Origin: Planctomycetota bacterium
GTDB lineage: Bacteria; Planctomycetota; UBA1135; UBA2386
NCBI GenBank assembly: GCA_020848735.1
Contig: JADLHO010000118.1
Location: 1-64,000 of the forward strand
DNA: 64,000 nucleotides
Direction: 5' to 3'
Shown here: positions 1 through 17,104 of the stretch, one piece after another
Layout of the letters: every line of letters begins with the position of its first letter
How positions within the stretch are numbered: the first letter of the stretch is position 1
Program-made: the position numbers and the translations under genes
Notes under the pieces: generated by a model
Told to the model about the DNA's origin: nothing
The model's database searches: none
The model's input: only the letters and a program-made list of their open reading frames with translations

Positions 1-455
1 CCGCTCAGGGGCCCGAGCACGAAGAAGACGACGAGGCAGCCGAGCGCGGAGCCGATGAGGTTGAAGCCGTAGCGCGCGTGCACGCTGCCGCTCGGATCCG
101 CGAGGATCGCCGCGACGGCCATGCCCGCGGAGACGTACGGCGCCGCGAGTGCGGCGAGCAGTCCCACCGTCCAGAAGTCGAGCGCGAACTCGAGGTGGTC
201 GGAGGCGTGCGCGAAGAAGACGTGCGCGACGACGAGCAGGAGCGCGGTCGCCAGCAGGTTGCGGGCGACGAGGGCGCGCGGGTCGCGGAGCTCCTTCTTG
301 AGCGAGAGCACCGAGCCGCCGGCCCCGAAGCCGAGCAGGACGACGCCGACGACGAGGAAGATCAGGCCGTTCTCGAGGGAGTAGGCGAAGATCTTCGTCT
401 CGAGGACCTCGAGCGCGAGCACGAGGCAGGAGAGCGCGAGCAGGACGAACGGCAT
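1..455 (-). CDS. Polytopic membrane protein, partial (C-terminus beyond window); resembles N-terminal membrane region of spermidine-synthase-like proteins
   Basis: Minus frame open from ATG at 455 to the window edge: MPFVLLALSCLVLALEVLETKIFAYSLENGLIFLVV...AVAAILADPSGSVHARYGFNLIGSALGCLVVFFVLGPLS. Absent from the ORF track because it is truncated. Hydrophobic segments are clear; the family call is tentative. Confidence 0.6.
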   Translation of the reverse strand, partial: MPFVLLALSCLVLALEVLETKIFAYSLENGLIFLVVGVVLLGFGAGGSVLSLKKELRDPRALVARNLLATALLLVVAHVFFAHASDHLEFALDFWTVGLLAALAAPYVSAGMAVAAILADPSGSVHARYGFNLIGSALGCLVVFFVLGPLS

Positions 456-661
456 CGACGGGTCGGGAACTTAGCGGGTCGTCCGATGGCTTCGCCCCGT
501 CATCGCGCGCTTCGCGAACTCGAGGGCATGACAGCGCTGGTCCCGCCACGCGGTGCGACGGAGTCCCGTCGCCCTTTTCGGCAGGCGAGCGCTTGCGACC
601 CGAGTCCCGGCTGGGTCTACTGCCCGCCCTCCGGAGCCGCCCTCGAGGCGGATCTGCGTCC

Positions 662-750
662 GGAGAGATGGCAGAGTGGCTGAATGCACCACCTTGCTAA
701 GGTGGCGTGGGGTTTACACCTCACCGGGGGTTCGAATCCCCCTCTCTCCG
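662..750 (+). tRNA. tRNA-Ser(GCU)
   Basis: Acceptor GGAGAGA/TCTCTCC, anticodon arm CCACC-TTGCTAA-GGTGG, long variable arm, T arm GGGGGTTCGAATCCCCC, discriminator G; no encoded CCA. Confidence 0.95.
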
Positions 751-794
751 TGGCGATCCTCGCCGCGCGTCCGGCTCGACCGGGCGCGCGGCGA

Positions 795-1265
795 GTGGCA
801 TCGCAGGGCGCTCCGTCGCGGCGGTTCTGCCGCGCGCTCCTCGCGCCGGCACTCCTCGCGATCGCGGCCTGCGCCGCCCCACGCTGGCAGGCCGCGGCGG
901 AACCCAGCTCGGCCGGGCTGATCGTCGATGGTGTGCTGCGCAGCGCGAGCCGGATCGACGAGCCGGTCCCCTACTACGGCGTCGTCGAGCTGAGCGCGGT
1001 CCCCCCGATCGGCGCGACGAGCAGCGACGGCCAGTCCCCGCTCGCCGCCACCCGTGGCCAGCTCGCGATCGAGCCGCCCGTGAGCCCCTGGCTCTTCCCC
1101 CTCGACTTCTTCGTCGAGATGGCCCGCTCGCCCTTCGTCACGGAGACGCCCGCGAGGATCGAGCTGGTGTGTCCTCCGCGCAGCGACGTCGCCGCGCCGG
1201 CCGCGCCCCCGCCGGGCCTCGAGTCGTTCCTGCTGCGCGCGCGGGCGGCGGCCGCGCGGCGCTGA
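795..1265 (+). CDS. Putative lipoprotein of unknown function
   Basis: ORF tail of 684..1265; start moved to GTG at 795 because the listed ATG lies in tRNA-Ser. Lipobox-like LLAIAACAAP. Confidence 0.5.
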   Translation: MASQGAPSRRFCRALLAPALLAIAACAAPRWQAAAEPSSAGLIVDGVLRSASRIDEPVPYYGVVELSAVPPIGATSSDGQSPLAATRGQLAIEPPVSPWLFPLDFFVEMARSPFVTETPARIELVCPPRSDVAAPAAPPPGLESFLLRARAAAARR

Positions 1266-1281
1266 GAGTCCGGCCGCAACC

Positions 1282-2700
1282 ATGACGCACGCCGCCCACG
1301 CCCGCCCCCTCGCCCTCGTCCTCGGACTCGGCCGCTTCGGCGGCGGACGCGAGGCGGCGCGCTTCCTCGCGCGGCACGGCTACGCCCTCCGCGTCGCCGA
1401 CAAGGCCCCGCCCGACTCCATCGCGGAGGCGATCGCCGCGCTCGAGGGACTCGAGGTCGACTGGCGTCTCGGACCGGAGAGCGAGGCGCTCCTCGACGGC
1501 GTCGCGCTGGTGGTCGTCAACCCCGCGATCCCGAACGAGCACGAGGTCCTCGTCGCCGCGCGACGCCGCGGCATCCCCTGCACGCAGGAGGTCGCGCTCT
1601 TCCTCGAGAGCTATCCGGGTCGCGTGGTGCTGGTCAGCGGCACCAACGGCAAGTCGTCGACGACGACGCTGCTCGCGCGCGCGTTGCGCTGCGCGTCGAT
1701 CGACACGCTCGTCGGGGGCAACCTCGGCAACAGCCTGCTCGCCGACGAGGCGCAGTGGCGCACGGACCAGTGCGCGGTGCTCGAGATCTCCTCGTTCCAG
1801 CTCGAACGCCTCGACCCCGCGCGCCACCGCGTGTGCGGCGCGGTCATGACGCCGGTCACGCGCGACCATCTCGATCGCCACGGTTCGCTCGAGGCGTACC
1901 GCGCGGCGAAGGCCGTCGCCGCGCGCCTCGCGTCGGAGTTCTGGGTGTACGGCGCCGGCGATGCGGTCGCCGCGGGCTTCGCGACGAACGCGAAGACGAC
2001 GCTGCGCCATCGGCACGGCCCGGCCCAGGCCGGCGATGCCGCGTTCCTCGGCGACGGCTGGCTCGTCCTCGGCACGGGCGACGACCCGGGCCCGCTCTGC
2101 CACGTCGATGCGCTGCGACTGCTCGGCGAGTTCCACTGGGACAACGCGATGGGCGCCGCGCTCGCCGCGCAGGCGCTGGGGGCGAAGCGCCACGCCATCG
2201 GCCTCGGCCTCGCGATCCAGGCGCCCCTGCCCTACCGCCTCCAGTTCGCCGGCCTGCGCGGGAAGGTCCGCGTCTACGACAACGCGGTGTCGACGGCCAT
2301 CGAGTCCACCGAGTCCGCACTCGACAGCCTCGCCGGCCCCGTCCACTGGGTCGGCGGCGGCAAGAGCAAGGAAGGCGACGCCGGCTACGCCCGCTGCGCG
2401 GAGGCCCTGGCCACGCGCGTCGCGAGCGCCGCGCTCTTCGGCGCCGCAGCCGCGCGCCTGGGCGAGGAGCTGGCTGCTCGCCGGGTCACGGTGAGCACCC
2501 ACGATCAGCTCGAGGCCGCCCTCGACGCCGCGCTGGCGCGCGCCCGTCCCGGCGAGGCCCTGCTCTTCAGTCCGGCCTTCGCCTCGTTCGACCAGTTCCC
2601 CAACTTCCGCGCGCGCGCCCAGCGCTTCCGCGCGTGGCTCGATGCCGGCGCGGCGAAGGCGCGGGCGGGCACCGCGCTGCCGCGCGCGCAGGAAATCTGA
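1282..2700 (+). CDS. murD: UDP-N-acetylmuramoylalanine--D-glutamate ligase
   Basis: Mur ligase motifs GTNGKSSTTTL, GGNLGNSL, LEISSFQLE, VTRDHLDRHGSLEAY, GGGKSKEGD. Confidence 0.85.
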   Translation: MTHAAHARPLALVLGLGRFGGGREAARFLARHGYALRVADKAPPDSIAEAIAALEGLEVDWRLGPESEALLDGVALVVVNPAIPNEHEVLVAARRRGIPCTQEVALFLESYPGRVVLVSGTNGKSSTTTLLARALRCASIDTLVGGNLGNSLLADEAQWRTDQCAVLEISSFQLERLDPARHRVCGAVMTPVTRDHLDRHGSLEAYRAAKAVAARLASEFWVYGAGDAVAAGFATNAKTTLRHRHGPAQAGDAAFLGDGWLVLGTGDDPGPLCHVDALRLLGEFHWDNAMGAALAAQALGAKRHAIGLGLAIQAPLPYRLQFAGLRGKVRVYDNAVSTAIESTESALDSLAGPVHWVGGGKSKEGDAGYARCAEALATRVASAALFGAAAARLGEELAARRVTVSTHDQLEAALDAALARARPGEALLFSPAFASFDQFPNFRARAQRFRAWLDAGAAKARAGTALPRAQEI

Positions 2701-2777
2701 AGGGCCGCGAATCCCACGGCGCTGCCCGGGACTCCCTGCCGTGGCGAACCGCACCGGTTCGCGACGGAGTCCACCCG

Positions 2778-2975
2778 ATGAAGCTGCTGGCCACCAACGA
2801 AGGCACCCTCGATCGCGCGCTGCGCGTCGCACTCGGTCTCGGCATCCTCTCCCTCGCGTTCGTCGGGCCGCAGAGCCCCTGGGCCTGGCTCGGCCTCGTC
2901 CCGCTGCTCACGGGCCTGCTCGGCTCGTGTCCGCTCTACACCTTGCTCGGCGTGCGCACCTGCAGGATCGGTTGA
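2778..2975 (+). CDS. DUF2892 / YgaP-type inner membrane protein
   Basis: MKLLATNEGTLDRALRVALGLGILSLAF...LVPLLTGLLGSCPLYTLLGVRTC; typical DUF2892 pattern. Confidence 0.85.
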   Translation: MKLLATNEGTLDRALRVALGLGILSLAFVGPQSPWAWLGLVPLLTGLLGSCPLYTLLGVRTCRIG

Positions 2976-3583
2976 CACCCGCTGACGGACGAGGGCCGCC
3001 GACGAGCGCTGCCGACGACCGCGAAGTCCTGGGCCGCGCCGCACGCGGCGACGCGACGGCGTTCGAGGACTTCGTGCAGCGCCACGAGGCCGCGCTCTGG
3101 CGCTACGCACGCGCGTTGTGCACCGACGACGCGCGCGCGGAGGACGCGCTGCAGGAGACCTTCGTGCAGGCCTGGCGTTCGGCCGCGAGCTTCCGCGGCG
3201 AGGGTTCGGCCCGCGCCTGGATCTTCACCATCGCCCGCAATCACGTGCGACGCAACGCGCGCCGCGCGCGTCACGAGCACGAAGCGCGCCACACCCCGCC
3301 CGATGCGACGCTCGAGGAACTCGCCACGGCCGCCGGCTTTGCCGCACCCGCCGATCTCGGCTTCGCACAGCGGCTCGACGACCGCGACGAGGTCCTGGCC
3401 GCCCTCGCCCGCCTCGACGCCGCGGACCGCGAGCTCGTCGTCCTGCGCGACCTCGAAGGCCACGACAACGAGACTGTGGCCGCGCTGCTCGGCCTCGGCC
3501 TGGCCGCGACGAAGAGCCGTGTGCACCGCGCACGTCTGCGACTTCTCGCCGAACTGAGACGGAGCCGTGAAGGACATGCGTGA
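2972..3583 (+). CDS. RNA polymerase sigma factor, ECF-type sigma-70
   Basis: Sigma-70 r2 (FEDFVQRHEAALWRYARALCTDDARAEDALQETFVQAWRSAASFRGEGSARAWIFTIARNHVRR) and r4 (LARLDAADRELVVLRDLEGHDNETVAALLGLGLAATKSRVHRARLRL). Proposed TTG start overlaps the previous stop (TTGA). Confidence 0.88.
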   Translation: MTPADGRGPPTSAADDREVLGRAARGDATAFEDFVQRHEAALWRYARALCTDDARAEDALQETFVQAWRSAASFRGEGSARAWIFTIARNHVRRNARRARHEHEARHTPPDATLEELATAAGFAAPADLGFAQRLDDRDEVLAALARLDAADRELVVLRDLEGHDNETVAALLGLGLAATKSRVHRARLRLLAELRRSREGHA

Positions 3584-3839
3584 GATCGCCGGTCTGCGTT
3601 GCGACGAGGTGCTGGAACTCCTGCCCGGCGCCCTCGACGGCGAGCTCGACACCGCGACCGCAGCCCGCGTGCGCGCGCACGTCGCGGCCTGCGATCAGTG
3701 CGAGCGCTTCGGCGCGCGGTACGCCGCGCTCGTGCAGACGCTGCGCACGCGGCACGCGCCCGCGAGCGCACCGGACCAGGCGCTGCGCGCGCGGCTTCGC
3801 GCACGGCTCGCGGCGGAGCGGCCAGGGCCCGATGCGTGA
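3567..3839 (+). CDS. Zinc-finger (zf-HC2-like) anti-sigma factor
   Basis: LRCDEVLELLPGALDGELDTATAARVRAHVAACDQCERF (H-x3-C-x2-C) overlapping the 3' end of the sigma gene. Confidence 0.8.
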   Translation: MKDMREIAGLRCDEVLELLPGALDGELDTATAARVRAHVAACDQCERFGARYAALVQTLRTRHAPASAPDQALRARLRARLAAERPGPDA

Positions 3840-3946
3840 GATCCGGATTCCGCACGCGCGCGTGCGGCCGACGGACGGCGGACCCGCGAAACACGCGCGG
3901 CACTTCGCTTGTTGAGCCGCGTGCTCCGCTCATCCCGAGGTCCATC

Positions 3947-6283
3947 GTGAGTCATCGCGCGTCACCCGTGTCGGCCGCACTCCACCGTCGTCGGGCGCGG
4001 CGTTCCCGCGCCTCCGTCCCCGCGCGCGCGGCGTGGCCGTTCGCACTGCTCGGTGCGCTGCTCCTGTGCCCGGCGATCCCCGGCCAGGTGGCCTGGCAGT
4101 CCCTCCAGCGTCCCGGTCCCGCCGCGCGTTCGCAGCACGCGATGGCCTACGACCTCGTGCGCGACCGCATCGTGCTCTTCGGCGGCAGCGACACGACGGG
4201 TTGGATCCTCGACGAGACCTTCGAGTGGGACGGGAGCGGCTGGGATCGCCGCAGCCCCACGACGCGGCCTTCGGCGCGCCGCGACGCCGCGCTCGCCTTC
4301 GACCTCCTGCGCGGCACGGTGCTGCTCTTCGGCGGAGAGGATCGCTCCGGCAACGATCTCGCGGACACCTGGGAGTGGAACGGCGTAAACTGGACCCGCC
4401 TCGCGCCGGCCGTGAGTCCACCGGGTCGTCGTTCCCATGCCCTCGCGTTCGACTTCGCGAGCGGCCGCATCCTGCTCTTCGGCGGGGAGCGTGCGGGCGT
4501 CGCGCTCGGCGACACCTGGGAGTGGAACGGCAGCGATTGGACGCAGCGCGCGGTCGGTGCGCCGGCGCCGGCCGCCCGCGGCCGACATGCGCTCGCCACG
4601 GATCCCGTGGCCGGTGGTGTCCTGCTCTTCGGTGGACTGGACGCGATCGGTGCCCGCGGCGACACGTGGCGCTGGAACGGCAACGCGTGGTCGGCCGTGG
4701 GGAGCGGCGGGCCGACCGGCCGCTTCCAACACGCGATGTGCGCGGACTTCGGGCGCGGCCGCGTCGTGCTCTTCGGCGGCACCACCGGGAACTGGGTGCC
4801 CCTCGCGGAGACCTGGACCTGGGACGGCAACGCCTGGACCCTCGCCGCGACGAACAGCAATGCCGCCGCCTACTCGCTCGCGATGGCGTACGACTTCGTG
4901 CGCGGCACCTCGCTCGCGTTCGGCGGGAGCACCTTCTTCCAGATCCTCGGGGAGACCTGGACCTTCGACGGCAGCCAATGGCTGCAGCCCTCGTCGGCGG
5001 CCTCGCCCTCGCCGCGCGCGTACACCGCGCACGCCTTCGACTCGAACCGCCAGCGCTTCGTCGTCTTCGGCGGTGACGACGGCAACCTGCTGGGTGACAC
5101 CTGGGAGTGGGACGGCACCCTCTGGCGTCGCGTCCTTCCGACGCAGCCACCGGGCGTCCGCTGGGGCGCGGCGATGAGCTTCGACCCCTCGCGCGGGCGC
5201 TGCGTGCTCTTCGGTGGCAACAGCAGCTTCGGCCAGTGGTACGGCGACACCTGGGAGTGGGATGGCACGGCCTGGTCGCTGCGCGCGACGAGCGGCCCGC
5301 CCGCGCGCTACGCGCACGCGCTCGTCCACGATCGCGGCCGCGCGCGCACGGTGCTCTTCGGTGGTCACGTCGCCGCGGGGATGGCGAGCGACACCTGGGA
5401 GTGGGACGGCAACGTCTGGCGCCAGGTCCTCACGCCGCAGGCGCCGTCGGGTCGCATCGACACCGCGCTCGCGTACGACGAACTCCGCGGGCGCGTCGTG
5501 CTCTTCGGCGGCCTCGACACGAACGGCTTCCTCGCCGACACCTGGGAGTACGACGGGACGAACTGGATCCAGCGCACTCCCGGCAGCTCGCCGCCCGTTC
5601 GCTACCAGCACGCGATGACGTACGACGCGGCGCGCGGCGTGTGCGTGCTCCACGCGGGCCTGGGCGACAGCGGCGTGCGCAACGACGTCTGGGAGTACGA
5701 CGGCACGACCTGGTCGCAGCGCAGCGCGGCTCCCGCACCCTCGGGCCGCCACCAGCACGCGCTCGGCTACGACGCCCGCAGCGCGCGCGTGGTCCTCTTC
5801 GGCGGACTCGACGCCACGAACGCGTTCGTCTCCGACACCTGGCTCTACGGTCCGACCCGGCCGGCGCGGGTCACGGCCTTCGCGAGCGGTTGTCCCGGCG
5901 CGGCCGGGGTCCCCAGCCTCGCGGTCGTGCAAGGTGGACTGCCCTGGCTCGGTTCGACCCTGACGCTGCAGCTCGACGCGATCGGCACGGCGCAGCCCGC
6001 GCTGCTGATCCTCGGGCTCTCGCGCACGCTCTGGGGCAGCACGCCGCTGCCCCGGGAGCTCGGCGCATTCGGCATGCCCGGCTGCCACCTCGCGGTCTCG
6101 ATCGACGCGAGCGTCGCCCTCGGCGGCACGTCGAATGCGCGGCGCTTCAGCCTGGGCGTCCCGGCGCAGACGGCGTTGCTCGGCGCCGCCCTGCACGCGC
6201 AGGGACTCGTCGTGGCTCCGGGCGCCAATGCGCTCGGCCTCGCGCTCAGCAATGCGGTCGAAGCGGAGCTCGGATCGCGCTGA
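3947..6283 (+). CDS. Secreted kelch-repeat protein with C-terminal beta-rich domain
   Basis: GTG start VSHRASPVS plus signal-like segment. About 12 repeats of the form (R)xVLFGGxxxxxxxxDTWEWDGxxW. Ends with a GC-type tail also seen in 39400..40509. Confidence 0.85.
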   Translation: MSHRASPVSAALHRRRARRSRASVPARAAWPFALLGALLLCPAIPGQVAWQSLQRPGPAARSQHAMAYDLVRDRIVLFGGSDTTGWILDETFEWDGSGWDRRSPTTRPSARRDAALAFDLLRGTVLLFGGEDRSGNDLADTWEWNGVNWTRLAPAVSPPGRRSHALAFDFASGRILLFGGERAGVALGDTWEWNGSDWTQRAVGAPAPAARGRHALATDPVAGGVLLFGGLDAIGARGDTWRWNGNAWSAVGSGGPTGRFQHAMCADFGRGRVVLFGGTTGNWVPLAETWTWDGNAWTLAATNSNAAAYSLAMAYDFVRGTSLAFGGSTFFQILGETWTFDGSQWLQPSSAASPSPRAYTAHAFDSNRQRFVVFGGDDGNLLGDTWEWDGTLWRRVLPTQPPGVRWGAAMSFDPSRGRCVLFGGNSSFGQWYGDTWEWDGTAWSLRATSGPPARYAHALVHDRGRARTVLFGGHVAAGMASDTWEWDGNVWRQVLTPQAPSGRIDTALAYDELRGRVVLFGGLDTNGFLADTWEYDGTNWIQRTPGSSPPVRYQHAMTYDAARGVCVLHAGLGDSGVRNDVWEYDGTTWSQRSAAPAPSGRHQHALGYDARSARVVLFGGLDATNAFVSDTWLYGPTRPARVTAFASGCPGAAGVPSLAVVQGGLPWLGSTLTLQLDAIGTAQPALLILGLSRTLWGSTPLPRELGAFGMPGCHLAVSIDASVALGGTSNARRFSLGVPAQTALLGAALHAQGLVVAPGANALGLALSNAVEAELGSR

Positions 6284-6313
6284 TCGGGCGCGGCGTCTAC
6301 GGCGCGGCGGCGC

Positions 6314-7246
6314 TCACTTCCCCACGGCCCACTGCTCGACGAAGCAGCTCACGTCGTAGCTCGTCATCCGATCGCCGCTGGCCTGCACACGGCGCAGCGC
6401 GTAGAGGCCCACGCCGGCGGCATCGAGGCGCAGGACGGTCGACTTGAGGTCCTGCGTGAGGACTTCGACCGTCGCCGTCGTCGCCAGGCCCTCGGTCTTG
6501 CCCTCGAGCAGAGTGGCCTTGGCCCAGTCGACGAAACCCGCAGCGCCGGCCTCGCCGACGCCGAGCGCGAGGTCGCCCACGCGCATGGTGATCTGCTCGC
6601 TGACCTTGCCCCGTCCGGTACCGACGCCGCTCGCCACCCCCTCGAACGCGACCGTGATCGGCGCGACCCGCGCGACGCGTGTGCAGTCGACGCCGGGGAT
6701 CGTGACGCGGAAGTTCGCCACGCCCGCGCGCTTCTGCCTGGCCACGCTCCCCGCGATCGAGTCGCCGGCCGTGCCGCTCGTCACGCGCTCCGGCTGGAAG
6801 CTCAGCGTGACGTCGAGCAGGTCCTTGCTCGACGCGTCGAGCGCGGGGAACTCGATCTTGACCAACTGCGCGCGTTGCGCGACCAGCCGATGCGCGACCT
6901 TCTGGTTGAGGTCGAGCTGGGCGATCGACACATCGAGGCGCGGTGGCTTGCCGGCGAGCGCATCGCGGATCCAGGGCAGGAAGTCCTCGAAGTCGCCGGT
7001 GACGACCAGGGGCTCGAAGCGCACCGCCCCGACCCGCTTCTTCGCCACGGCCTGCGGGCCGGTCGGCTGCACGATCACCTCGGCCACGGCGTCGCCGCCG
7101 CTCGCGCGGCGGAGCATGAAGACCTTGCCGCCGGCCTCGAGGGCGACGGCGCTCGGTGCGCCGATGCCGCCCTTCTGCGCCGCGATCGGCGTGACGGCGA
7201 GCGAGAGGGCGGCGAGGACGGCGACGACACGGTTCGCGATGGACAT
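6314..7246 (-). CDS. Secreted protein with T4 gp19-like (phage tail tube fold) sequence, possibly two tandem domains
   Basis: Signal peptide MSIANRVVAVLAALSLAVTPIAAQ. Then SGGDAVAEVIVQPTGPQAVAKKRVGAVRFEPLVVTG...FLPWIRDALAG...AQLVKIEFPALDASSKDLLDVTLSFQPE, resembling Pfam PF06841. A second segment begins NFRVTIPGVDCTRVARVAPITV. Confidence 0.7.
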   Translation of the reverse strand: MSIANRVVAVLAALSLAVTPIAAQKGGIGAPSAVALEAGGKVFMLRRASGGDAVAEVIVQPTGPQAVAKKRVGAVRFEPLVVTGDFEDFLPWIRDALAGKPPRLDVSIAQLDLNQKVAHRLVAQRAQLVKIEFPALDASSKDLLDVTLSFQPERVTSGTAGDSIAGSVARQKRAGVANFRVTIPGVDCTRVARVAPITVAFEGVASGVGTGRGKVSEQITMRVGDLALGVGEAGAAGFVDWAKATLLEGKTEGLATTATVEVLTQDLKSTVLRLDAAGVGLYALRRVQASGDRMTSYDVSCFVEQWAVGK

Positions 7247-7309
7247 GGCTCTCCTGGGCTCTTGGGCCCGGATGGCGCTCATCGGCACGGCGGCGCGCCC
7301 GACTCCAGC

Positions 7310-10090
<2,781 letters not shown>

Positions 10091-10266
10091 GGCCAGACCT
10101 CGTCGCTTCGGTTGCTCGTCGTCGCCCCGCCCGGTCACCGTCGTCTCCGCGCGCCGCGCGGCGATCGGGTGAGTGCCCGAGCCGCTCCTTCTTCGACCGT
10201 CCGCGCGGGAACTTGAGCCGCTTGGACTCCCGCATCCCGTCCGCGCGGGAAGCTCCGCTGCCAACG

Positions 10267-10920
10267 TCATCGCACCTGCGCCTGGCGCCAGTGCGTGGGG
10301 ATGTGGCAGCGGTCGCAGCGGTCGACCCAGCCGAGGCCGAGGTGCGGCGGATTCGCCGTGCGCTGCAGGTCGTCGAAGTGACAGGTGACGCACGCCGAGT
10401 CCGTCGGCACGAAGCGCCCCGCGAAGGACCCGGGGTGACAGCGGTTGCAGCTCGTGATCGCGTGCGCACCGGTCAGGGGGAAGCGACCGTGGGCGTGCGC
10501 GGCGACGAGGTCCTTCGGCCGCCACGTCGTCTCGCCGTGGCAGTCGTCGCAGGCGACGCCGAGGGTGCCCGCATGGACGTCCTCGTGACAGCCGACGCAA
10601 CCCCGGCTGCGGAACACCGCGACGGGCCCACGGTCGTTGTGACAGAGCAGGCAGCGCGCCGTGGCATGCGCGCCCGCGAGCGGCACGCCCGTCTGCGCGG
10701 CGTGGTCGAACGCGAAGTCGGCGACCAGCGTGTTCCAGTCGTCGCCGGCATGGCAGAGCCGGCAATCGGCGGGGAAGGTGTCGTGGGGCAGCACGGGGCC
10801 GAGTCCCGACCACCAGCGATAGCGCGCGACGGCATCGGGATCCTGCACGGCGCAGGAGCCGATGACCGCGAGCGTCATCGCGGAGAGGAGGAACAGGAGG
10901 GCACGGAGCGGAGTGCGCAT
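10267..10920 (-). CDS. Heptaheme c-type cytochrome, 7 CXXCH motifs
   Basis: CRLCH, CLLCH, CVGCH, CDDCH, CNRCH, CVTCH, CDRCH; N-terminal hydrophobic segment ending IGSC. Confidence 0.9.
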   Translation of the reverse strand: MRTPLRALLFLLSAMTLAVIGSCAVQDPDAVARYRWWSGLGPVLPHDTFPADCRLCHAGDDWNTLVADFAFDHAAQTGVPLAGAHATARCLLCHNDRGPVAVFRSRGCVGCHEDVHAGTLGVACDDCHGETTWRPKDLVAAHAHGRFPLTGAHAITSCNRCHPGSFAGRFVPTDSACVTCHFDDLQRTANPPHLGLGWVDRCDRCHIPTHWRQAQVR

Positions 10921-10930
10921 GGAGGGTCCC

Positions 10931-12652
10931 TCAGAAGCTGCGCTGGACGAAGAATCCGACGCCGTAGGCGAAGTCGTCGTCCCAGAGGACGAGGTCGCCG
11001 TGGAAGGCGAGGTTCCAACCCGAGTCGAAGGCGAAGCTGCGGCTCGCGCGGAGACGGTGCTGCAGCAGGTCGTCGCCGTCCGGGGGCCGGCCCGCGAGGT
11101 GGTGGTTCGCGAACTCGTAGAGCAGGTCCCAACGGCCGTCGCTCACGCTGCGCCCGAGCTCGACGCGCACGCCGGCCACGGACGTGAACTCGCCGAGCGA
11201 GCCGAAGAGCACGAGGGCGAGCTCGTCGCCGTCGAGGAAGACGCTGCCGTAGCCCTTGCCGAGCTCGAGCGCGCCGCCGTGCTCACGCTCGTCGGCCCAG
11301 CCCGAGAGCTCCGCGCGCCAATGGTCGGTGCCGCGCGCCCCGCTGTGGCCGGCGAGCGCGACGCGATCGACGTGCTCGTCGTCGAGCTCCGCGGGCGTGC
11401 GGGGCTCGAACTCGCGCCGCAGCGTGAGCGGGAACGCGCGGCGCCGATAGCTGAACTCGTAGCCGGAGCCGTCGGTCTCGAAGCGCCGCACGGCGAGCCA
11501 GGCCTGCGTGAGTTCGAAGGTCTGGCCCTTCGCGTCGTCGCGCGATTGCAGGTAGGTGTCGAGCCATGCGCTCGCGCTGACGTCCCATCCCGGCTCGCCG
11601 ACCCAGCGCCCCTTCAGGACGAAGAGGTCGCGGTCCGCATCGGCGTGGTGGAACGTCTTCTGGTAGCCGACGTCGAAGCTCAGCGTCTCGGGACCGTCGG
11701 CAACCCAGCGGAACGACGCCGCGACCTGGAAGTCGTCGCCCGTCGAGAGCTCGTCGTCCTCGTTCGGCTGCCAGCCGATGCTCGCGGCGAGACGATGGCC
11801 GTCCTCGGTGCGATGGCCCCACTCGAGGCCGTCGACCCAACCGAACTCCGGCATCGCGTGCTGGAGGAAGCGACCGACCTGCCAGCGCGTGGGCGCGAAG
11901 CGCGTGCCGCCCTCGCGGTACGCCAGGGTGCGCAGGAGGAGACCGGTCGCGCGGTCGTCGTCGAAGTCCGCGCGGTGTGCCACCTCGAAGTCGAGCTCGA
12001 GCGTCTCCCCGCGACCGAGGGCGTTCTCGAAGCGCAGGTCGGTGCCGACGCGGAGCTGCGAGTTCGCGAAGGTCGAGCCCGCGTCGTCGGTCGCGCCGTG
12101 CACGAGACCGCCCGCCGACCAGATGCGGCCCATGAAGCGCGGTTCGCGCGCCGCCGGTTCGACCGGGCGCACCCTCGCGAGCAGGGGCATGCCCGGCTCC
12201 CAGCCATCGGCGCGCTCCGGCCAGGGCGGCGCCGGCGATGGCTGCGGCGGTGGCGGCGACGTCTCGCCGCGCGAAGGCGGGGTCGAGGGCGCAGGATCGG
12301 GCGGCGGTGCGAGCCGCCGGCGCGGGATCCGCGTCTCCCCGCGCGTGCCGGGTTCCGGCACGAACGCGGGCTCGTCGGGCTCGACGATCGCGCTGCGCTC
12401 GTCGACCTGGCGCACGGTGCCGGCGAACGCGCCGCCGCGCGCGGGCAGGAAGCTCACGCGGTCGCCGAGCTGCACGCCGTCGCGCGCACCGCGATCGATG
12501 CCGATCGCGCCGCGCACGGCGCTGGTCACGCGCAGCGGCAGGCGGAGCTCCGCGCCGTCCTGCGGTGTCGTCGCCGCGCTCGGAGCCTGGGCGATCGAGA
12601 CGGCCGACACGACCCCGAAGGTCGCCATGCACAGCGGCAGCAAGACGGTCAT
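10931..12652 (-). CDS. Outer-membrane beta-barrel (porin-like) protein
   Basis: N-terminal signal, Pro-rich linker, then alternating amphipathic strands ending in Phe (GVGFFVQRSF). ATGA overlap with the upstream cytochrome gene. Confidence 0.7.
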   Translation of the reverse strand: MTVLLPLCMATFGVVSAVSIAQAPSAATTPQDGAELRLPLRVTSAVRGAIGIDRGARDGVQLGDRVSFLPARGGAFAGTVRQVDERSAIVEPDEPAFVPEPGTRGETRIPRRRLAPPPDPAPSTPPSRGETSPPPPQPSPAPPWPERADGWEPGMPLLARVRPVEPAAREPRFMGRIWSAGGLVHGATDDAGSTFANSQLRVGTDLRFENALGRGETLELDFEVAHRADFDDDRATGLLLRTLAYREGGTRFAPTRWQVGRFLQHAMPEFGWVDGLEWGHRTEDGHRLAASIGWQPNEDDELSTGDDFQVAASFRWVADGPETLSFDVGYQKTFHHADADRDLFVLKGRWVGEPGWDVSASAWLDTYLQSRDDAKGQTFELTQAWLAVRRFETDGSGYEFSYRRRAFPLTLRREFEPRTPAELDDEHVDRVALAGHSGARGTDHWRAELSGWADEREHGGALELGKGYGSVFLDGDELALVLFGSLGEFTSVAGVRVELGRSVSDGRWDLLYEFANHHLAGRPPDGDDLLQHRLRASRSFAFDSGWNLAFHGDLVLWDDDFAYGVGFFVQRSF

Positions 12653-14718
12653 CGCGATCTCCTCTGCGCCCGCCGCAGCGGGTCGTCGTTCTTCCCGTGG
12701 CACGCCGCGCAGTCCGTCGGCAGGGGTCGCCAGCGCACGACCTCGTGCTCGCCGATGCGCTGAGGCTGGTGGCACTTCGCACACGCGACGCCGCGGTGCT
12801 GCTCGCCGAGCGCGAAGCGCGCATCGCGGTCGTGGTCGAAGATCAGCGCGCGGAAGGGGCCCGCGTCGTCGTGGCAGCGCGCGCACTCCGTGCGGCCCTC
12901 GGTCGTGAACTGACCCGCGTGCGGATCGGCGTGGCAGTCGGCACAGCGCGTACCGCGCGCCGGCTCCCAGGTCCGTCCGCGCGGATCGGGTTCGAGCCGC
13001 GTCGCATGACAGGCGGAGCAACGCGCGCGCGCGTGCGCGGAACGGAGTGCGAACCCCGTCCAGCGGCCGTGGTCGAAGGGCGTCTCGAAGTGCCGGAACG
13101 AGGTCTCGACGTGGCAGCGCGCGCAATCGCGGCGCCCGTCGAGCTCCGCCGGCAATCCCGGTCGGTCGAAGCCGCCGTCGTGGGGATCCACGTGGCAGGT
13201 GACGCAACCGCGGAAGGTGCCGAACTGCGCCGCGACGCGCCCGAAGCAGCGGCCCTGCGCGTCGGGTTCGGCCGCGCGCGGGTGACAGCTCTCGCAACCG
13301 GCGACGGCATGCGCGCCGCGGATCGGGAAGCGCACGTCGCGCGCGTGGTCGAAGCCGGGTTCGTGCAGCGCCGCGAAGCCGTGCGGCGCATGGCAGCGCG
13401 CGCAATCCGTCCGCCCATCCGCGTCGGCGAAGAAGGCCGCGTGGGCGTCGGCGTGGCAGTCCGCGCAGCTCGTGGAGAGACCCGCGAAGCGGCGCGGCGA
13501 AGCCGGCGTGTCCGACGTGCCCGGCGTGTCCGACGGATGGCACGCGTCGCACGCGGCCGACGCGTGACGGCCCTCGAGGGGCATCCTCGTGCGCGCGTGC
13601 TGTTCGACCGTGAAGCCGTGTGGGCGGAACTGCGTCCGCGCATGGCAGTCGACGCAGGTCGCCGTCGCGAACACGCCGCCCGCGAAGGCCCCGTCGTGCG
13701 GATCGCCGTGACAGGCGCGGCAGTCGTCCGGCGCGCGGTCGAGGTGGCGCTCGGCGAAGCCGCCGAGTTCGCCGCGGTGGCACGCATCGCACGCGACGCG
13801 ATCGTGCGGCACGCCGAGGGCGAACCCGCTCGCCGCGTGCTGCTCGGGCGCGATCGTCGCACGCCCGGCCCCGAAGGCCTCGTGCGCGACGTCGTGGCAC
13901 TGCACACAGGTCTGCGCTTGCTGCGTGCGCGCGAGCCCGGCCCAGGCCGCGAGGCTCGCCGCGCGGTGCGGCGAGTCGTGGCACGCGGCGCAGCTGCGCG
14001 CCGCGGGCGGGCGATGGGGCGCGAGGAGTTCGAGCGCGTGCGCGGTCCCGTCGGCGTGGCAGCCGCGACAGGTGACCGCGGCATGCCCGCCGCCGAGCGC
14101 GAGCACGCGTTCGTGGTCGAGCGCGCGCGGCGCCGCGAAGTCGCTCTGGTCGTGGCAGTCCGCACACGCGCGCTGCATGCGTCCGTCGTGCGGATCCTCG
14201 TGACAGCTCGCGCAGTCGCGCGCGAGTCCGAGGTAGCGCTGTTCACCGTCCGCGAGGACCGGCTTCTCCGCGTGGACGTGGCACTCCGCGCAGCTCAGCT
14301 CGAGGTGCTTGCCGGACATCTCCCAGCCGATCCGCGCGTGATCGAAGGCCGCGGGGTCGGGCACCGCGGCGAGCGCGAAGCTCGCCCGGTTCACGATCGC
14401 GAAGCCGGCGCCGTGGTGCTCGCTGTGACACGACGCGCACGCGGATCGCTGCTCCGCTGGGAGCGTGCCATGGAGGCCCGACCCGCGCTCGAACTGCGTC
14501 GCGATCGGCTCGTGACAGGCGAGGCACGCGTCCTTCATCGACGCGAACCATCCGCCATGGCATTGCGCGCAGTGATGACGCCCCTCGAGCTCCGCCACGG
14601 CGCCGTGGACGCTCGAGAGCGGCCCCGGCGACGTACGACCGATCGCCGCGAGCGCGAGCCAGCCGACGAGCAGCAGCGAGAGCGTGCCGACCCAGACGCG
14701 GGGATCGCGCAGCCTCAT
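12649..14718 (-). CDS. Large multiheme c-type cytochrome, 23 CXXCH motifs
   Basis: N-terminal anchor MRLRDPRVWVGTLSLLLVGWLALAAIG. 23 CXXCH counted by eye, in repeating FDH-x-H-x-CxxCH-like units. Confidence 0.9.
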   Translation of the reverse strand: MRLRDPRVWVGTLSLLLVGWLALAAIGRTSPGPLSSVHGAVAELEGRHHCAQCHGGWFASMKDACLACHEPIATQFERGSGLHGTLPAEQRSACASCHSEHHGAGFAIVNRASFALAAVPDPAAFDHARIGWEMSGKHLELSCAECHVHAEKPVLADGEQRYLGLARDCASCHEDPHDGRMQRACADCHDQSDFAAPRALDHERVLALGGGHAAVTCRGCHADGTAHALELLAPHRPPAARSCAACHDSPHRAASLAAWAGLARTQQAQTCVQCHDVAHEAFGAGRATIAPEQHAASGFALGVPHDRVACDACHRGELGGFAERHLDRAPDDCRACHGDPHDGAFAGGVFATATCVDCHARTQFRPHGFTVEQHARTRMPLEGRHASAACDACHPSDTPGTSDTPASPRRFAGLSTSCADCHADAHAAFFADADGRTDCARCHAPHGFAALHEPGFDHARDVRFPIRGAHAVAGCESCHPRAAEPDAQGRCFGRVAAQFGTFRGCVTCHVDPHDGGFDRPGLPAELDGRRDCARCHVETSFRHFETPFDHGRWTGFALRSAHARARCSACHATRLEPDPRGRTWEPARGTRCADCHADPHAGQFTTEGRTECARCHDDAGPFRALIFDHDRDARFALGEQHRGVACAKCHQPQRIGEHEVVRWRPLPTDCAACHGKNDDPLRRAQRRSR

Positions 14719-16946
14719 GATCCACCTCGCTCGCCGAGCAGCGAGCCGTACGCGAGCGCGTAGCCGATGTGCACGACGATCAGCACGACCATCAGCAGCG
14801 CGAGCCAGCGATGGAGCCAGCGCCACGTGGAGAGGACCGCGCGCAGATCCTCGAGATGGCCGATCGCGATCGCCTCACGATGGGCCTCGCGCGCGAGTGC
14901 CAGGGCCACGCCGAGCTCCGCGGGCGGCACGGCGGCGGCGCGCGCCTCCGCGCGCAGGCGGCGCAACGCGCGACGCAGATCGAACTGCACGCCGGCGAAC
15001 GCCAGCAGCCGTCCGGCGAACGAGCCACGCCACTGCCGCGCCTCGGCGAGGCGGAGCACCTCGGCCCGCGCACGCGCCGCGAAGCCGTCGGCCGGACCGT
15101 CGAGCTTCGCGAGACGCGCGCGCACGTCGGCGAGAGCGAGCTCACGGCCGTTGGCCGCACGCGGCACCCACGCGTAGAGCCAACGGCCGATGCCGCCGGT
15201 CGCGACGATCACGAGCATCGCCCAGAACGCCTGACCGCCGGGCGTGTCGCGCGGCGCGAGCGCGGCGTGGAGCACGGCGCAGAGTCCGGCGAGCAGGCCG
15301 GTGGCGACGTGCACGGTCATCCACGTGCGCAGCGTTCCGAAGCGGAACGGTCGGCGCTGCGCGCGGCGCAGGAGATACGCGAGGTTCGCGATCACGAGCG
15401 CGGCGGCGGCGATGCCGAACGCGAGACCGAGACCGAGCCCCGGCCGCAGCAACGCGTGCTTGTCGTGCATCGGCCGCGCCTCGAGCGGCAGGCCGTAGTA
15501 GTCGAGGTTCGCGATCGCGAAGCCGAGCGCGAGCACGCCGGTGACGAGCGCGAACGCGAGCGCGGGCACCGCCGTGGCTCGCCGGTCCGCGGCAGGGGCG
15601 CCGCGGCGATCGGCGCGCGGCTGCGGTCGTCGCGCGGGATCGAACGACACGCCGGCCTGCTCGAGCAGGGGCTGCGACGGCACGCCGCCGATCATCACGA
15701 AGATCTCGTCGTTCTCGAGTTCGAGCTCACGCCCCTCGCCGAGCCTCAGCACGACGTGCTCGCGCGCGATCGCGCGGACCTCGCTGCCGAGCAGGAGCCG
15801 CACGGCTCCGGCCTCGACGGCCTCGCGCAGGCGCGCCGCGTTGCGCGAGCGCACGCGCACGAACGCGGTCTGGCGGTAGCTCAGGCTGACGGTGTGGCCC
15901 GGCTGCGCGGCGAGCGCGAGCGCGGTCTCGACCGCGGCGTCGCCGCCGCCGACGACGAGCACGCGGCGGCCGGTGAACGACGCGGCGTCGATCAACGCGT
16001 AGGCGACCTTCGGCAGGTCCTCGCCCGGCACGCCGAGGCGACGCGGCGTGCCGCGGCGTCCGACCGCCAGACAGACGTGGCGCGCGCGCCAGGTCCCACG
16101 CGACGTGCGGACGCTGCGCGAGCCGTCGTCGTGGACCAGAAGCCCCTCGACGGCGGCCCCGGTCTCGATCGGGAGGGCGTGCTCGCGCGCCGCGCGCTCC
16201 CAGATCGCGATCAGGTCCTCCTTCTCGTAGCTGCGCGCCGCGAGACGTCCGACCAGCGGGAGCTCGATCGGTTCGGTGAGGACGAGCTTGCGCCGCGGGT
16301 ACTTCGCGACGGTCCCACCGAGCTCGGTCTCCTGCTCGAGCACGACGTGCGGCACGCGGAGCCGGGTCGCCTCGAGCGCACAGGCGAGGCCCGCGGGACC
16401 CGCACCGAGGATCGCGAGCTCGACCTGGCCCGCCGGCAGCGGGCCGAGCGCGCGCCGACGCTCCGCCACCGCGCGCGCGACGCGCGTGCCGTGCTCGACC
16501 GCGGTGCGCACGAGCGCGTGCGCCGTCACCTCGCCCGCGAGATGGAGACCGGGTGCGCCGACTGCCGCGAGTTCCTCGTCGACGACGGGGATGTCCCGCC
16601 GCGTGGCGAGGTTCGCGATCGACACCGTGATGGCGCCGGCCGGACATTCGCGCTCGCACGCGGCGATGCCCTGGCAGCGCGCCCCGTTGACGACGAGCGC
16701 CTGGCCGTGCGCGATCTCGAGCACGCCCTGCTCCGGACACACCGCCACGCAGGTGGCACAGCCGAGGCAGCGCGAGAGATCGATGACGGGATGCTGCAAC
16801 CGCGCCGCCTCGTCACCCGCGGCCTGCGCGCGCTCGCGCTCGAGCAGCGTCTCGCGCATGCGGGCGAGGTCCGCGCGATGGAGCCAGGCGCCGACGAGCG
16901 CCAGGGCACAGACGACGACGAGGCCGACGAGGACGAGCCAGGTCAT
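14715..16946 (-). CDS. Fused ferredoxin / FAD-NAD(P) oxidoreductase / diheme cytochrome b-like membrane protein
   Basis: CLGCATCVAVCP 4Fe-4S motif. Two Rossmann motifs (AILGAGPAGLACALEA; VLVVGGGDAAVETALAL). C-terminal membrane region with two H-x13-H helices (HVATGLLAGLCAVLH; HRWLALLMVVLIVVH). Confidence 0.85.
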   Translation of the reverse strand: MTWLVLVGLVVVCALALVGAWLHRADLARMRETLLERERAQAAGDEAARLQHPVIDLSRCLGCATCVAVCPEQGVLEIAHGQALVVNGARCQGIAACERECPAGAITVSIANLATRRDIPVVDEELAAVGAPGLHLAGEVTAHALVRTAVEHGTRVARAVAERRRALGPLPAGQVELAILGAGPAGLACALEATRLRVPHVVLEQETELGGTVAKYPRRKLVLTEPIELPLVGRLAARSYEKEDLIAIWERAAREHALPIETGAAVEGLLVHDDGSRSVRTSRGTWRARHVCLAVGRRGTPRRLGVPGEDLPKVAYALIDAASFTGRRVLVVGGGDAAVETALALAAQPGHTVSLSYRQTAFVRVRSRNAARLREAVEAGAVRLLLGSEVRAIAREHVVLRLGEGRELELENDEIFVMIGGVPSQPLLEQAGVSFDPARRPQPRADRRGAPAADRRATAVPALAFALVTGVLALGFAIANLDYYGLPLEARPMHDKHALLRPGLGLGLAFGIAAAALVIANLAYLLRRAQRRPFRFGTLRTWMTVHVATGLLAGLCAVLHAALAPRDTPGGQAFWAMLVIVATGGIGRWLYAWVPRAANGRELALADVRARLAKLDGPADGFAARARAEVLRLAEARQWRGSFAGRLLAFAGVQFDLRRALRRLRAEARAAAVPPAELGVALALAREAHREAIAIGHLEDLRAVLSTWRWLHRWLALLMVVLIVVHIGYALAYGSLLGERGGS

Positions 16947-17104
16947 GACGCCTCCTGGCGCCCCGCACCCCGCTGCGACGCGCGCCGTTCCTGCGCCGTC
17001 ATCGGCAACGCCCCATCCCCCATGACGGACCCCAAAGCGTGATCGACCGTCCGCCGCCGACCCTGGAATCGCAGCGGCGCACGTCGGCCGGATCTTGGAT
17101 CGAC

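Follow-up and report, generated by a model that had tools for sequence, protein, structure and literature searches.

A putative exported protein with two tail-tube domains, encoded beside a multiheme cytochrome operon in a planctomycete genome

The window analysed here, 64,000 nucleotides of contig JADLHO010000118.1 from a Planctomycetota bacterium, carries on its reverse strand a gene of 310 codons plus stop for a double-domain tail-tube protein. The reading frame is a genuine gene: GC3 exceeds GC2 by 0.44, there are no internal stops, and an AGGAG lies about 7 nt before the ATG at position 7246. A long kelch-repeat beta-propeller protein (PF24681, PF13418) is encoded convergently at 3602-6283 (+). 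Directly upstream of the tube gene and on its strand runs a cytochrome operon (7310-16950) that also includes an FAD/4Fe-4S membrane protein and, judged by its composition, looks like an electron conduit. The features referred to below are as follows.

6314..7246 (-), exported double-domain tail-tube protein, as predicted from PF06841, AlphaFold2, Foldseek and relatives
7178..7246 (-), predicted Sec signal peptide, residues 1-23, from sequence and hydropathy
6773..7153 (-), tube domain 1, approximately residues 32-158, from Pfam, AlphaFold2 and hhalign
6323..6721 (-), tube domain 2, approximately residues 176-308, from AlphaFold2 and hhalign
7310..10090 (-), 11-heme cytochrome with a lipobox, directly upstream of the tube gene (context)
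10267..10920 (-), 7-heme cytochrome (context)
10931..12652 (-), probable outer-membrane beta-barrel of the conduit, named from position and composition, with no Pfam match (context)
12649..14718 (-), 23-heme cytochrome (context)

The initial annotation had proposed, from the letters alone, a Sec-exported protein with two tandem gp19-like tube domains, and each part of this proposal held up. Against Pfam, the protein matches PF06841 in two stretches just above the family cut-off (E 1.8e-6; 28.3 bits, cut-off 28.2), while its match to the tail-tube family PHROG 4542 is weak (E 0.0086). No match was found in NCBIfam, no relative in a sequence search of the PDB, and no T6SS_HCP match in either Pfam or NCBIfam. 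Alignment of the domain 1 and domain 2 profiles with hhalign gave a probability of 94.7 (E 5.8e-8) over 139 columns. An AlphaFold2 monomer model computed from an 18-row alignment of relatives (A4) reached pLDDT 77.8 and pTM 0.76, and predicts two beta domains with one helix in each (residues 86-97 and 236-247). Foldseek returned 30 PDB matches to this model at E <= 0.001, led by 8xan_A (E 5.3e-8), and all 30 are tail-tube, tail-tip or tube-bearing chains of phages or contractile injection systems (CIS). The first seven are siphophage tail-tube and tail-tip proteins, including those of T5 and its kin, and two-domain tubes of the T5 pb6 kind are the best structural matches of the model; Hcp structures appear only at lower ranks. 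Because the two domain profiles match each other and the model and its structural matches present two tube domains, sequence and model together show two gp19-type tube domains in one chain.

The N-terminus, MSIANRVVAVLAALSLAVTPIAA followed by QK after the putative cleavage site, reads as a textbook Sec-type signal with n-, h- and c-regions that are absent from the CIS members of the family, and it contains no lipobox cysteine. By these features the protein is predicted to be exported by Sec.

A search of genome contigs with the single window protein found no relative, whereas a search with three domain-1 sequences (A2) yielded 13 loci, to which sweeps with A4 added more; since A4 includes the window row, its E-values for the window protein are not independent evidence. 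Weak blast matches at L003, L004, L026 and L027 were rejected as wrong-frame chance hits. In phmmer searches the window protein is full-length kin to CIS members and to exported members with E-values down to 2e-27, and both domains and a DASSKD segment can be recognised over the full length of the alignment of relatives. The resulting double-tube family, whose members are about 310 aa long, falls into three kinds: (a) signal-free double tubes in Myxococcota injection clusters with PF04984/PF17482 sheaths (L074, L076-L081, L136); (b) signal-free double tubes that stand alone (L082, L111, L132-L135); and (c) double tubes bearing a predicted export signal, with flanks lacking any CIS homologue, in Planctomycetota, the Bdellovibrionales phylum and Nitrospirota. 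Kind (c) is represented in Planctomycetota by the window protein, L086 and L119/L141, and in the Bdellovibrionales phylum by L075/L139, L137 and L115, of which the last is truncated where its contig stops. In Nitrospirota it comprises seven proteins with Tat signals of the SRRDFLRRAG type from three genomes (L083, L108, three copies in L109 and two in L110). Sec signals are predicted for L086, L119, L075, L137 and L115. L086, from another planctomycete (G310), is a nearly full-length blast relative of the window protein at 31% identity; in L119, both domains match canonical gp19 (E 9e-43), yet the protein carries a Sec signal and its neighbours include no CIS genes. Family matches were found in 8 of 284 Planctomycetota genomes at E <= 1e-10, most of them ordinary tubes, and in 9 of 148 sampled Nitrospirota genomes at E <= 1e-8, some of them ordinary tubes. 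In a tree of 30 members, in which the window protein sits on a long branch, the export label requires 5 changes (bootstrap 3-6), and the well-supported branches are compatible with one origin. Double tubes routed, by their signals, to Sec or Tat are a real family, though an uncommon one in these samples.

The absence of nearby injection-system genes, noted at the outset, was confirmed and extended. Apart from the tube itself, no homologue of the Myxococcota CIS proteins was found in window positions 1-16000; the flanks of the other signal-bearing relatives are likewise free of CIS genes, so that exported tubes of this kind do not always travel with standard injection genes. Genome-wide, PF06841 has one match and no PF04984 sheath was detected in the genome as assembled, a MAG that is 89% complete and 6.9% contaminated, so that an injection system encoded elsewhere might have escaped detection. 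Among 10 other genomes tested, the sheath was also undetected in six (G257, G505, G506, G507, G508, G599) and is present in four (G310, G596, G644, G511).

Comparison with characterized tubes places the window protein between several systems. The CIS tubes of PF06841 (Afp1/Pvc1 and those of Algoriphagus, Anabaena and Streptomyces) resemble each of its domains in predicted fold (Foldseek E 6e-6 to 1e-4) and in scoring on PF06841, but the window protein has two domains per chain, a putative export signal and no accompanying sheath or baseplate genes. The Myxococcota double tubes share its two-domain architecture and align over the full length at about 25% identity; they differ in having no signal and in being encoded beside sheath, baseplate and cap genes. 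In T5 pb6, a ring-forming domain was duplicated and fused, and three such chains make up a pseudo-hexameric ring that stacks on others (PMC5717097). Like the window protein, pb6 and comparable two-domain tubes of siphophages have two fused tube domains per chain and are among the best structural matches, but pb6 has only about 10% identity to the window protein and the two duplications were probably independent; pb6 is, moreover, a virion protein assembled in the cytoplasm. A parallel in the literature is a report on Ca. Accumulibacter granules, which places proteins with Phage_T4_gp19 and T6SS_HCP domains in the granule secretome, with a gp19-domain protein abundant in the extracellular proteome that its authors propose to be a tubular subunit (PMC12019908). 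That protein resembles the window protein in carrying a gp19 domain; it was seen in the extracellular proteome, but might there be the tail of a phage or CIS that had been released. Apart from this mention of an extracellular proteome, no description of exported gp19 proteins was found in the open-access literature.

Tail tubes are known as parts of phages or injection machines that are assembled in the cytoplasm. The presence of relatives with predicted export signals in at least three phyla suggests that the fold has been reused outside it. On balance we think it probable that the window protein is a duplicated CIS-type tube protomer repurposed outside the cytoplasm, where it would build pseudo-hexameric rings. 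The tube domain is duplicated within one chain, the gene is no longer encoded with an injection machine in the genome as assembled, and by its sequence the protein has a Sec signal. In this model, three copies would close a pseudo-hexameric ring by analogy with pb6, either in the periplasm or beyond the cell surface; such rings may pile up into short tubes that lack a sheath and act as a structure or a conduit. The model is supported by the tube fold and its duplication, by the alignment over the full length with signal-free tubes whose genes adjoin PF04984/PF17482 sheaths, by the other signal-bearing double tubes outside CIS loci, by the undetected sheath and single PF06841 match in the genome, and by the examples of pb6 and the granule protein; against it count that the structural model is of a monomer and that export is read from the sequence. 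The genes next to the window tube give no indication of what role the assembly would have in the planctomycete. If the model is correct, at least three phyla have members in which a virus-like part, sent out through Sec or Tat, has been domesticated into an extracytoplasmic structure, and the family offers simple, testable proteins that would make sheathless tubes outside the cytoplasm.

An identity of about 25% to the CIS members, together with the long branch, means that the assembly surfaces may have been lost. The protein could then be an exported but non-polymerising one, whose tube fold is kept as a sturdy beta framework and which works as a monomer or as one ring, for instance in binding, in adhesion or as part of the envelope. 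The high divergence fits this account, as does the occurrence of the genes in Planctomycetota and the Bdellovibrionales phylum as solitary units without conserved partners. We regard it as possible but rather unlikely, since both domains and the DASSKD segment remain recognisable over the full length and the predicted structure matches ring-forming two-domain tubes best.

The repurposed-tube model gains concrete candidate partners from the Nitrospirota clusters, which also invite a more elaborate reading. In G596 and G599, genes for tubes with predicted Tat export are interleaved with genes for putatively Sec-exported proteins that combine a coiled coil with a C-terminal beta-helix of the gp5/VgrG type. 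Such spike-like proteins lie between the Tat-exported tube genes at L109 7536-8411 and 9191-10204 and at L110 10827-11324, and end in GGTKPLATVGS...TGS. Their matches are weak singly but agree with one another (PHROG 9992 baseplate, E 0.004 and 0.025; PF10106, E 0.005; PDB Gp5/VgrG, E 0.1-1.1), and from sequence they are possible exported spike partners of the tubes. The clusters also encode putatively exported proteases, namely a papain (PF00112, E 4e-40), a trypsin (PF00089, E 5e-27) and a HELTH protein that matches eCIS_core weakly. A short motif, [VI][TEQ][EDS]R[AG][VLI], occurs in 11 of 123 cluster genes, each time among the first 130 residues and in most cases a little way past the signal peptide. 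Shuffled sequences give a mean of 0.10, and the motif is missing from all 294 genes taken from other loci, among them the window; this count is descriptive, because the motif was defined after some carriers had been seen and a few carriers are orthologous to each other. The carriers, at L083, L109, L110 and L144 (G507, G596 and G599), belong to unrelated families (spike-like proteins, trypsin, the HELTH metallopeptidase and InlB B-repeat proteins), and the motif is possibly a sorting or loading tag. On the more elaborate reading, exported tubes would be the core or remnant of sheathless tube devices put together outside the cytoplasm. In Nitrospirota, Tat-routed double tubes, Sec-routed beta-helix spikes and Sec-routed proteases, several sharing the motif, would make up a tube-and-spike delivery or matrix system that relies on general export in place of a contractile sheath, and the window protein would be a reduced member. 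We consider this unlikely to be the explanation.

The tube gene does stand beside multiheme cytochromes, as first described; the functional link to them that was suggested at the same time is not supported. One form of such a link would be a protein exported to serve the upstream electron conduit specifically, as its scaffold or collar. The tube and 11-heme genes share a strand, are separated by a 63-bp gap and have no terminator-like site between them, and co-transcription with the cytochromes is possible. However, across the class the conduit operon is common and generally lacks the tube gene: relatives of the 11-heme cytochrome at about 60% identity occur in 58 of 154 class genomes, and among 30 conduit loci of the class the tube gene is present in the window only (0 of the 29 others). 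The presence of this conserved cytochrome operon shows the contig to be typical of the class; behind the operon, the tube gene has the look of a late arrival. Exported relatives, too, mostly lack a multiheme neighbour, as a neighbour with at least three hemes was found at 2 of 11 exported-type loci, the window and a doubtful split pair (L084). A conduit-specific role is therefore very unlikely, and the position of the gene is probably incidental.

It is hardly likely at all that the protein belongs, as the tube, to a contractile injection system or prophage encoded elsewhere in the genome and that its N-terminus is only signal-like: CIS members are its closest relatives with a function readable from their neighbours and the MAG is incomplete, but the genome shows no sheath and a single PF06841 match, the CIS members lack the n-, h- and c-regions of the signal, and tblastn found no relative of the window protein among 50,697 phage records. 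The same phage collection gave no match to a Myxococcota double-tube member. The Myxococcota-type injection clusters L077-L081 each contain a pair of paralogous genes for double-domain tubes and a pair of sheath-like genes.

The split pair mentioned above lies at L084 4973-5970 in the planctomycete G257, where a gene with a predicted Tat signal is followed by one for a domain-1-like tube protein that has no signal. The domain-1 gene is convincing (E 1.5e-11), while the Tat gene shares only NFRVRIGGV with domain 2 and its single-sequence model has a pLDDT of 33.5. The pair could be a split double tube exported as a complex. It adjoins a divergent 8-heme cytochrome.
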